A stretch of 64,000 nt of DNA, taken from positions 163,584 through 227,583 of the forward strand of contig CABMGO010000005.1 of assembly GCA_902385655.1 (NCBI GenBank), written 5' to 3'. The translations under genes and the position numbers were made by a program. The notes beneath the pieces are model-generated. The model made no database searches. It was not told the DNA's origin and saw only the letters and a list, made by a program, of their open reading frames with translations. Source of the DNA: an uncultured archaeon (GTDB lineage Archaea > Nanobdellota > Nanobdellia > Pacearchaeales > GW2011-AR1). Shown piece by piece: positions 10,290 to 58,236 of this stretch (positions within the stretch are counted from its first letter, which is position 1; each line of letters begins with the position of its first letter).

Positions 10290-10646
10290 TTATTCAACGA
10301 AATCCTCAAAAGGATTATCTGATTGACTCCCATAATCCTCAGCAAGTTTTTGATCCAAAACAAGTCTATTCCGTCCAATTCTTCTAGAAACTTCAACCAT
10401 TTTATTATCTAAAAATTGATATCCTTTAGAAGTTCCAAAGGTAATCAAACCTTTAACAAAAGCAGAGCCATAATTTCCTTCAGCAAGATCATAAAGTGCA
10501 CTAAATCCTGACCAAATTCCCCCCACAATAACTGCAAGCTTACCTGTGCAATACGAAGCAGATAAAGCAGAATCTCTTCTCAAGTCTGAATAAGCATTCC
10601 TAATTCTCTGTTTTTGAAAGGTTTTGTAAGTCATTTTGCGAATCAA
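10290..10646 (-). CDS. hypothetical protein
   Basis: ORF 118 aa, preceded by the structured leader described in findings. Confidence 0.6.
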   Translation of the reverse strand: MIRKMTYKTFQKQRIRNAYSDLRRDSALSASYCTGKLAVIVGGIWSGFSALYDLAEGNYGSAFVKGLITFGTSKGYQFLDNKMVEVSRRIGRNRLVLDQKLAEDYGSQSDNPFEDFVE

Positions 10647-10851
10647 GCTACCTTCGCAAGGTAACGAATTAACTGAGTTACCGCTAACTTCCTTGCGAAA
10701 TTCAAATTTAACTTCCAGCAGGATGATCCTTTGAGGATTTGATTCATTGTGAGCATTTTGTTTTCATTAATATTCGATTTATAAAACTTCCTCAGAGGAA
10801 GCATTCACGGACAAATAAGATATAAAAAAATAAAAAAAATTAATAATGTGT

Positions 10852-33060: not shown

Positions 33061-33483
33061 TTATCTTCTACCCTTCTCGATCTTGCCTTTCCATAATCTT
33101 CTTAATGGCTGATCATTTACTTTAACAACTTGGAATCTAACTCCAGAAAGGTCTCCCTTTGTCTTACCTTGTTTTCCACCGATTTTTTCAATCATAACTT
33201 CATCATGTTCATCAATGAATTTTTGTGCAAGATTTCCTGGAATAAAACAACCAATAACTTTACCGTTCTTTGTCAACTGAACTCTGCAACATTTTCTCAT
33301 AGCGGAGTTTGGCTGCTTAGCTTCTAATTGGAATTTGGAAGTAACAATACCTTTTGCTTGAGAAGATCTTCCTAAAATCGCATACTTTAGAGTAATACCT
33401 AACTTTTTCTTTTTCCAAACTTTATCATTCATTTGGAACTTTTTTCTATTCTTTCTCAATTTCTTTGCATTCATTAATCCCAT
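33061..33483 (-). CDS. rps12: 30S ribosomal protein S12 (start re-assigned to ATG at 33483, MGLMNAKKLRKNRKKF)
   Basis: QPNSAMRKCCRVQLTKNGK motif; the ORF-track start at 33525 is TTG within the leader hairpin. Confidence 0.93.
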   Translation of the reverse strand: MGLMNAKKLRKNRKKFQMNDKVWKKKKLGITLKYAILGRSSQAKGIVTSKFQLEAKQPNSAMRKCCRVQLTKNGKVIGCFIPGNLAQKFIDEHDEVMIEKIGGKQGKTKGDLSGVRFQVVKVNDQPLRRLWKGKIEKGRR

Positions 33484-33602
33484 TTTGACATATTTTTCAA
33501 AAATAGATTTTTGAAAAAATGGCAAGGTAACAAGCTTGTCGCGTTACCGCTATCGGGCTTTTTTGACCAAACTGAAAGTTTGGAGCGATTCAAAAAACGC
33601 CC
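33481..33602 (-). promoter_or_regulatory. structured leader element, rps12 copy
   Basis: Three consecutive stems homologous to the nrdR leader; see findings. Confidence 0.75.
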
Positions 33603-33786
33603 TACCATCTTTCGAAAATTTATTTTCGACTTTTACTATAAATTAGAGTGAAATCTTCATTTATAAACATTTCGAGAGGAGTATCGACGTAGTCGATATG
33701 ATTTTTATAATCTATAAATAACAAATTGAAAATTTGTTTTCATTTAAAGCTCAGCAGAGTCATCCTTTGAGGATAAACGTTTCGCG

Positions 33787-42980: not shown

Positions 42981-43256
42981 TTACTTAGAGACTATTTCTT
43001 TTATAGCTTCTATGTGATCAGCAATCTCAAGTCCTTTTTTTGTAAGTTTGATAATTTTTATTCTTCCTTTCTTTTCAAATACAACTAAACCCATTTCCTC
43101 TAGCGTTTGTAAAATCTTAACCGCGTGAGAATAAGTACAATCAACTTCCTTAGCTAAAACAGAACCATACTTAGCCTTACTTACTCTTTTCAAAGCAAGC
43201 AGCATCATAGCTGGTTTTCTTCTAAAAAACAAATCAAAGTGATCTTCTGTTACCAT
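42981..43256 (-). CDS. winged-helix DNA-binding protein
   Basis: 91 aa, VLAKEVDCTYSHAVKILQTLEEMGLVVFEKKGRIKIIKLTKKG. Confidence 0.85.
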   Translation of the reverse strand: MVTEDHFDLFFRRKPAMMLLALKRVSKAKYGSVLAKEVDCTYSHAVKILQTLEEMGLVVFEKKGRIKIIKLTKKGLEIADHIEAIKEIVSK

Positions 43257-43484
43257 TTTGCGATATTTTCACTAAATTTATTTGAATTGAAAAATCGGAA
43301 GGTTGTAAAGCAACCGCTAACATTCTTGACAACTGCGAACGAAGTGAAGTTTGTGTTTGTCATTTGAATATATATTATTTAACCTATATTTCTGAGTTGT
43401 AAACTGCTTTTAAAGCTTTCTCAAGTTTTTCGTCCACGCGTAGTAGATACATCTAATTTGAGAGAAGTAACAAAAAAACTAGAA

Positions 43485-57600: not shown

Positions 57601-57648
57601 ACACTACATATTGTGGTTTAAAAGACATAAAAACACAATAGATAGTGT
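57601..57648 (+). promoter_or_regulatory. tandem NrdR boxes ACACTACATATTGTGG and ACACAATAGATAGTGT, 32 bp apart
   Basis: Match acaCwAtATaTwGtgt at 14/16 and 15/16 positions; TATA-like TTTAAATA at 57578-57585. Confidence 0.8.
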
Positions 57649-57676
57649 CTTCGACACTTCGATAAAATCGTATAAA

Positions 57677-57798
57677 GGACGTTTTTTGAATAACGCCAAA
57701 CCTTCGGTTTGGTCAAAAAAGTCCGATAGCGGTAACTCGACAACTTTGTTGCTCGTTACCTTGCGATTTTCCAAAAAAATTCGAAATATCGCAAAATG
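57677..57798 (+). promoter_or_regulatory. structured leader element, nrdR copy
   Basis: 122 nt from GGAC to ATG, homologous to the rps12 leader; UUCG hairpin CCAAACC-TTC-GGTTTGG. Confidence 0.75.
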
Positions 57799-58236
57799 AG
57801 ATGCCCATATTGCAGCAATGAAGAAACAAAAGTTGTTGATAAAAGAGACACCGAAGGGTTAGCGAGAAGGAGAAGAGAATGCCTCAAGTGTGAAAAAAGA
57901 TTCACAACATACGAAAGAGTTCAACTTGATTTGACTGTAATAAAAAAAGACGGAAAAAAAGAAAAGTTCGATGCTGAAAAATTAAAGAGAGGAGTATGCC
58001 GAGCTCTTGAAAAAAGACCGATAGAAAAAGAAGACATCGAACAAGCAATAATCGAAATCGAGTCAAGAATTTATCGTGTTGCAAAAGATGAAGAAATTCA
58101 AACTTCAAAAATTGGAGAAATAATCATGGACAAACTAAAAAAAATGGACAAGGTAGCATACATCAGATTCGCAAGCGTTTACAGAGAATTTGCAGACCTG
58201 GAAGATTTCAAAAGGGAGATGAAAGAACTAAAATAA
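57796..58236 (+). CDS. nrdR: transcriptional repressor NrdR
   Basis: MRCPYCSNEETKVVDKRDT...CLKCEKRFTTYERV zinc ribbon + ATP cone. Confidence 0.96.
   Translation: MRCPYCSNEETKVVDKRDTEGLARRRRECLKCEKRFTTYERVQLDLTVIKKDGKKEKFDAEKLKRGVCRALEKRPIEKEDIEQAIIEIESRIYRVAKDEEIQTSKIGEIIMDKLKKMDKVAYIRFASVYREFADLEDFKREMKELK

Follow-up and report, generated by a model that had tools for sequence, protein, structure and literature searches.

The window, by which we mean the whole stretch of 64,000 nt analysed here, belongs to an archaeal genome of 0.84 Mb in 8 contigs, about 85% complete. The best match of its ribosomal protein S12 (84% identical) is in 'Nanoarchaeota archaeon E14_metabat.bin.268', and many Candidatus Pacearchaeota come next; this one protein suggests a position of the genome within or close to the Pacearchaeales (DPANN). 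The window holds four copies of a leader that lies at the start codons of genes, and the core GTCAAAAAAGNCCGATAGCGGTAAC, common to the leaders of rps12 and nrdR, occurs in it twice against 0 occurrences expected by chance. The features are the following:

33061..33483, minus strand: rps12 (S12, 140 aa), with an authentic N-terminus (Pfam PF00164, E=1.7e-36; relatives align from residue 1)
33481..33602, minus strand: rps12 leader of the long class (class I), 122 nt from GGGC to ATG, found by blastn and model R1
33485..33525, minus strand: helix P3 of the rps12 leader, M arm TTGCCATTTT (33516-33525) with R arm (33485-33495), ending 1 nt before the AUG and excluding P0
33526..33548, minus strand: helix P2, GGTAAC/GTTACC, from pair counts across copies
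33549..33554, minus strand: junction GATAGC (GATAGC/GTTAGC), the unpaired block with the highest conservation in the family
33555..33602, minus strand: helix P1 (33591-33602 with 33555-33565) and apical hairpin P1b (33567-33583), from A1 pair counts
33603..33611, minus strand: L arm AAGATGGTA, partner of the M arm in P0, the closing helix of a three-way junction whose other two helices are P1 and P2 (minimum-energy fold and permutation tests)
33474..33608, minus strand: uORF MVGRFLNRSKLSVWSKKPDSGNATSLLPCHFFKNLFLKNMSKWD, spanning the whole leader, with its stop 7 nt past the A of the rps12 ATG
33661..33668 (approximate), minus strand: TATA-like TTTATAAA, a putative promoter element upstream of the rps12 leader and uORF
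57677..57798, plus strand: nrdR leader of the long class (class I), 122 nt from GGAC to ATG, found by blastn and model R1
57662..57674 (approximate), plus strand: nrdR L arm with AAAATCGTA inside, pairing with M arm TGCGATTTT when the R arm is left out of the fold
57611..57799, plus strand: possible nrdR uORF, weak because it has a TTG start and no ATG; its stop is the TGA of the ATGA at the nrdR start
57796..58236, plus strand: nrdR, with an authentic N-terminus (Pfam Zn_ribbon_NrdR and ATP-cone)
43250..43363, minus strand: third copy, P1 lost, whose uORF MTNTNFTSFAVVKNVSGCFTTFRFFNSNKFSENIAKW ends where a winged-helix gene (42981-43256) starts; matched by R1 and R2
10632..10804, minus strand: fourth copy, a short form with arms TTCGCAA / TTGCGAA / TTCGCAA and a uORF stop 11 nt before the start codon; matched by R1 and R2

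The rps12 and nrdR leaders had been described in a sequence-only reading as each exactly 122 nt long from GGRC through ATG, and these coordinates were confirmed, together with the compensatory change in stem 1 (GGGC/GCCC versus GGAC/GTCC). This length holds for the two leaders but is not a constant of the family, since other matches measure about 57 to 186 nt. The last stem of that reading is indeed a pairing helix next to the AUG, but in rps12 its register was wrong: the homologous helix is TTGCCAT.../...ATGTCAA, 1 nt from the AUG. The stretch then marked, 33481-33602, holds the leader but misses the 5' arm at 33603-33611. As the TATA-like sequence lies 5' of both the rps12 leader and its uORF, the leader should be within the transcript, provided that this sequence acts as a promoter.

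Leaders of this kind are dispersed over the genome, with about 15 copies found by blastn, about 30 by model R1 and 36 by the core model R2 after one antisense partial match was taken out. A genome-wide family excludes chance as the source of the likeness between the rps12 and nrdR leaders. The earlier picture of two leaders was therefore correct about their reality but too small, as it missed the roughly 36 copies, the uORF, helix P0 and the existence of two architectural classes, long (class I) and short. All 36 copies end on ATG or GTG; 29 of them start an ORF of at least 42 aa, three start the next tandem unit and four (L021, L033, L036 and L167) a very short ORF. Ten downstream proteins were recognized by Pfam, namely S12, NrdR, PheT domains, SecY, SBDS, L3, L18, PIN, T2SSF-like and winged helix, and further genes were judged by eye to be ABC, MFS, radical SAM and glycosyltransferase genes. 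The downstream genes are mostly authentic and mutually unrelated, and because S12, L3, NrdR and PheT seem to begin at their authentic starts, the position of the leader at the start codon is real. An autoregulatory leader of ribosomal protein genes was considered and rejected, since copies also precede transporters, PIN, radical SAM, glycosyltransferase and other genes.

From 5' to 3' a leader consists of the L arm, P1 with apical P1b, the junction GATAGC, P2, the M arm (TTGC...), a variable loop, the R arm, one A and the AUG. Across 11 copies 96.1% of the cells in P1, P1b, P2 and P3 are paired, compared with 83.1% after shuffling and 31-56% in slid controls; for P2 and P3 in 36 copies (A3, which was fitted to its own model) the values are 95.4%, 78.8% and 21-56%, with 86 two-sided cells versus 26 shuffled and two-sided changes at 10 of 16 pairs, although the copies are related, so that the shuffle tests overstate significance and the slid controls are the sturdier comparison. 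In A1, for which loop insertions were removed from two seeds, the cells of P1 and P1b are paired in 95% and 98.5%, and two-sided changes are present in both helices. P2 alone is paired in 97.1% of cells across copies, with two-sided changes at five of its six pairs. About ten variants of its 5' strand (GGTAAC, GGTTGC, GTTAAC, GTTAGT, GGCAGT, GACAGC, GATAGC, GTTTGC, GATAAC and GGTTAC) have a compensating 3' strand in nearly all cases. Against these variable helices the junction GATAGC/GTTAGC hardly changes, and the long class retains a bulge of one nucleotide in its R arm. The leader helices therefore covary very strongly. A lack of covariation or of an association with start codons had been named as evidence against the sequence-only reading; neither was encountered, and both predictions held in the newly found copies. 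A hairpin motif like TTCGTCTTCGACGAA recurs in the loops of L032, L034, L026 and L171 (as TTCTTCTTCGACGAA in the last of these) and may be another exchangeable module.

In 16 copies of the long class the M arm has a second partner, the flank directly 5' of P1, with which it forms P0. The mean energy of this duplex is -7.9 kcal/mol as compared with -5.6 kcal/mol when flanks are swapped among copies (permutation p = 0.0002, 16 copies), whereas the next 32 nt upstream, used as a control, gave p = 0.37. Likeness of the L and R arms could be viewed as a simple target duplication. This fits L022, L026 and L032, but in 13 others L differs from R and still pairs with M (p = 0.0035 for P0 in these 13 copies). 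P0 and P3 both use the M arm and are consequently mutually exclusive: the minimum-energy fold is the three-way junction in rps12, pheT and others, and P3 in nrdR, secY and others. The short class is without P1 and often without a good P0. Exclusive helices, as would be expected of a riboswitch, are supported here by the folds and the permutation tests; a ligand-binding aptamer, the other defining part, would be hypothetical.

The leaders are also crossed by an open frame. We defined the uORF as one with an ATG start at least 60 nt upstream, which runs across the leader and has its stop between -12 and +20 relative to the gene start. Such a frame is present in 18 of 28 copies compared with 2.8 +/- 1.5 when shuffled (none of 300 shuffles reaches 18), for an end window that was chosen after looking, which is mitigated by later copies, most of them of the short class used to build R2: all seven found afterwards with R2 have it. 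The same 18 of 28 and 7 of 7 copies thus carry a mini-cistron whose stop overlaps or adjoins the next start, either as TGA within ATGA, as TAA just before the ATG, or as a stop a few codons further on. In the long class alone the count is 9 of 18 versus 1.6 shuffled; shuffling only the flanks gives 1.8, which indicates that the uORF start codon, contributed by unrelated flanks, is itself non-random. With the chosen cut-off, an ATG-started frame reaching the gene start is missing in a bit under one third of copies (L022, L023, L027, L030-L034 and L036). The 14 short-class uORFs listed have lengths of 96, 102, 108, 132, 153 and 168 nt, all multiples of three, and the frames of the composite copies, 75 codons in L035 and 94 in L047, stay open across inserted hairpin modules. 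A conserved leader peptide was rejected, because the frame of the core differs among copies (it is read as VSGNSTSSLPC in some and as KLAVTRLARYLAK in others) and synonymous changes are not in excess, with a synonymous ratio of 0.36 in frame against 0.40 and 0.17 for the out-of-frame readings. What is selected seems to be the translatability of the uORF and the position of its stop. Much of the short class has a GGAGG Shine-Dalgarno sequence in the P3 loop (7 of 10 below -5 kcal/mol with the anti-Shine-Dalgarno sequence), matched by the 16S tail of the same genome, which keeps GGATCACCTCC; in the long class a Shine-Dalgarno sequence is found in only 33%, versus 24% of the genes in the window.

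A clean empty site was observed at rpl18. In the relative G056 the L19e-like gene overlaps L18 as CAATGAGC, and here the arrangement is CAATGA-[unit]-AAATGAGC, i.e. one ATG-to-ATG unit of 95 nt placed at the ATGA gene overlap, with a uORF of 32 codons, so that both stop-start junctions survive. In relatives, rps12 has no such leader, and its ATG is typically preceded at a short distance by a TATA-like box (at about 28 nt in the closest relative). The secY gene studied here has a TATA-like box about 26 nt before the uORF ATG, a spacing which suggests that the uORF now occupies the old start position. Tandem units are found at two places (C6:64495-64739 and C5:252573-252759), and modules P1, P2 and P3 have been exchanged among copies, for example in the mosaic L030/L033, where P2 and P3 are common and P1 is not.

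Related-genome homologues had been proposed as a check, but model searches of relatives gave no convincing match. R1 was searched in 55 relatives and 10 named neighbours and R2 in 378, 371 and 36 genomes (overlapping samples, with only 12-13 candidates scored per genome in the large R2 scans), and no convincing copy was found in G056, in 32 same-family genomes or in the larger class and phylum samples, together about 800 other genomes of the phylum outside the genus. Weak matches had E=0.004 (R1, in G024) and 0.09-0.5 and look like chance; the place in G024 starts no open frame of gene length. Pattern scans of GTDB and viral contigs gave 0 matches, and the same pattern does find the copies in this genome. 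Rfam returned no family match on the leaders of the window at the gathering threshold and nothing convincing on the leader for ten loci at E<=5, where only a sub-threshold snoRNA-like match around L034:1608-1704 was seen. The leader family is real and is without a match to any described family in the libraries searched.

Several known systems resemble these leaders in part. GEMM (c-di-GMP) riboswitches in Geobacter are multicopy, and like the leaders they place one structured element with alternative helices near the start before many genes; the leaders differ in having no Rfam match and no known ligand, in having turned up in a single genome and in the uORF through the structure. Bicistronic design (BCD) cassettes carry an internal Shine-Dalgarno sequence, which the short class resembles in having one within the leader cistron. 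In BCD cassettes, too, a short leader cistron is coupled to a target gene (PMC5995908), but the leaders are natural and multicopy with covarying hairpins, and the long class is mostly without a Shine-Dalgarno sequence. Coupling by termination-reinitiation at ATGA/TGATG overlaps has been established by experiment both in Haloferax and in E. coli (Huber et al. 2019, PMC6728339); of the two routes that have been proposed for coupling, one depends on structure near the second start (review PMC12548453). In those ordinary gene pairs (PMC6728339) the stop of the first ORF also overlaps or nears the next start, whereas the first cistron of the leaders is a repeated, structured and peptide-indifferent insert. 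Rickettsia palindromic elements, as summarized in PMC10969869, are palindromic repeats of about 150 bp in unrelated genes with frames kept open (Ogata et al. 2000), which is also true of the leaders. In the same account many of them are in-frame fusions within ORFs with a conserved peptide, unlike the leaders, which end and terminate at start codons with a varying frame and no conserved peptide; an element of this type, as there described, was therefore rejected. IS200/IS605-derived MITEs and REP elements are likewise dispersed hairpin-bearing DNA, but the covariation of the leaders is tied to the start codon. The sole Y1_Tnp gene of this genome, an IS200-type TnpA gene (L190, G000:C1:18460-18804), has its own flanking hairpins, unlike the leaders as judged by eye only, and on this ground a MITE origin was rejected.

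It is rather probable that the leaders are a dispersed structured mini-cistron, located at the start codons of unrelated genes, through which termination-reinitiation couples or gates translation. A ribosome would enter at the uORF start, which may coincide with the former start of the gene or overlap the stop of the upstream gene, would make an unimportant short peptide while opening hairpins P1-P3, and would then terminate on or next to the true start codon and reinitiate there. Since P3 (M:R) abuts the AUG, direct initiation should be poor when no ribosome translates the uORF; in the short class GGAGG lies in the P3 loop, and in the long class P0 (L:M) frees the R arm, so that uORF traffic or another signal could decide which fold wins. 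The earlier suggestion of a cis-regulatory or mobile leader stands as far as a covarying RNA structure at start codons and a dispersed family are concerned; control of access to the start codon we infer. What speaks against this reading is that the set of leader-bearing genes has no regulatory logic and that nearly a third of the copies lack an ATG-started uORF reaching the gene start. The heterogeneous gene set, the tandem arrays and the absence from relatives argue that the element spreads, and the compensatory changes in diverged copies argue that its structure is kept after arrival. A more far-reaching proposal, which we hold only tentatively, is that of a self-dispersing mini-cistron that inserts at start codons, gives the new start codon and rewires genes to termination-reinitiation through an L/M/R three-arm RNA switch; genes so rewired would include essential ribosomal-protein genes.

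The leaders could also be purely selfish mobile elements that target start codons, comparable to Rickettsia palindromic elements and with no regulation; their structure would then serve movement alone, and the frame would be kept open only so that an insertion does no harm to coupled genes. This we regard as unlikely. It would account for presence and absence at rpl18, rps12 and secY, for the tandem units, the mosaic and composite copies with their open frames, and for the lack of copies in the about 800 other genomes searched, but highly diverged copies still pair via compensatory changes, which suggests selection after insertion; moreover, terminal inverted repeats and a consistent target duplication were not found in the copies, and the only IS200-type transposase found has, as judged by eye, different end hairpins. 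Some bacteria have tens of copies of one riboswitch class per genome, and a lineage-specific riboswitch-like switch, in which the P0/P1/P2 junction with its GATAGC core binds a metabolite or protein and sets P0 versus P3 across a global regulon, would agree with the three-way junction folds (that of rps12 included), with L and R arms both matching M copy by copy and with the nearly invariant junction. We nevertheless judge it quite unlikely, given the incoherent gene set with mid-operon sites included, the lack of an Rfam match even at permissive thresholds, a short class without P1 and open frames ending at the start codon, which it does not predict. Residual ancient leaders or functionless chance repeats could explain copies with in-frame stops or with no sizeable gene directly downstream, but in view of the covariation across 36 copies, the frame statistics and the complete association with start codons this is extremely improbable.

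By mechanism the proposed termination-reinitiation leader would follow a known process, and by architecture it is possibly a new kind of genetic element. If it acts as proposed, nature would have in it a multicopy equivalent of the bicistronic leaders made by engineering, dispersed in the genome and fitted to a start codon in structure, frame and end point alike. It would also offer testable cases of the evolution of uORF coupling in minimal archaeal genomes and of a repeat entering the S12, L3, L18 and SecY genes without killing the cell.

Some individual loci have further peculiarities. At L043 (G000:C6:64495-64739) three tandem mini-cistron units, overlapping near their start codons, are followed by a glycosyltransferase-like gene. 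L035+L046 (G000:C5:30366-30550) and L038+L047 (G000:C5:133792-134055) share an additional module of similar sequence, GAACTCACAAAATGCATTTCGT...GCATTTTGTTCACC or close to it, which lies at one and the same position in P1 within the open frame; L047 carries another in the loop of P2. Possibly the module is a separate hairpin element nested within the leader. Directly after the leader L033 (G000:C5:279984-280127), whose ATG is the start of no sizeable gene, comes ATGGTTGCGCAGTGA, which nearly repeats the stretch immediately 5' of the leader (AATGGTTGCGCAGT on both sides); a resemblance to integron attC was considered there. At L021 / L002 (G000:C3:187456-187582) the leader is followed by a 19-codon ORF, MDEIKLRMTRIDNDVFNRI, with the same peptide as the C-terminus of the upstream gene; the two differ by about a dozen synonymous changes and 0 protein-changing ones, the pattern that might be expected if the tail was copied or was exchanged for that of a diverged relative.
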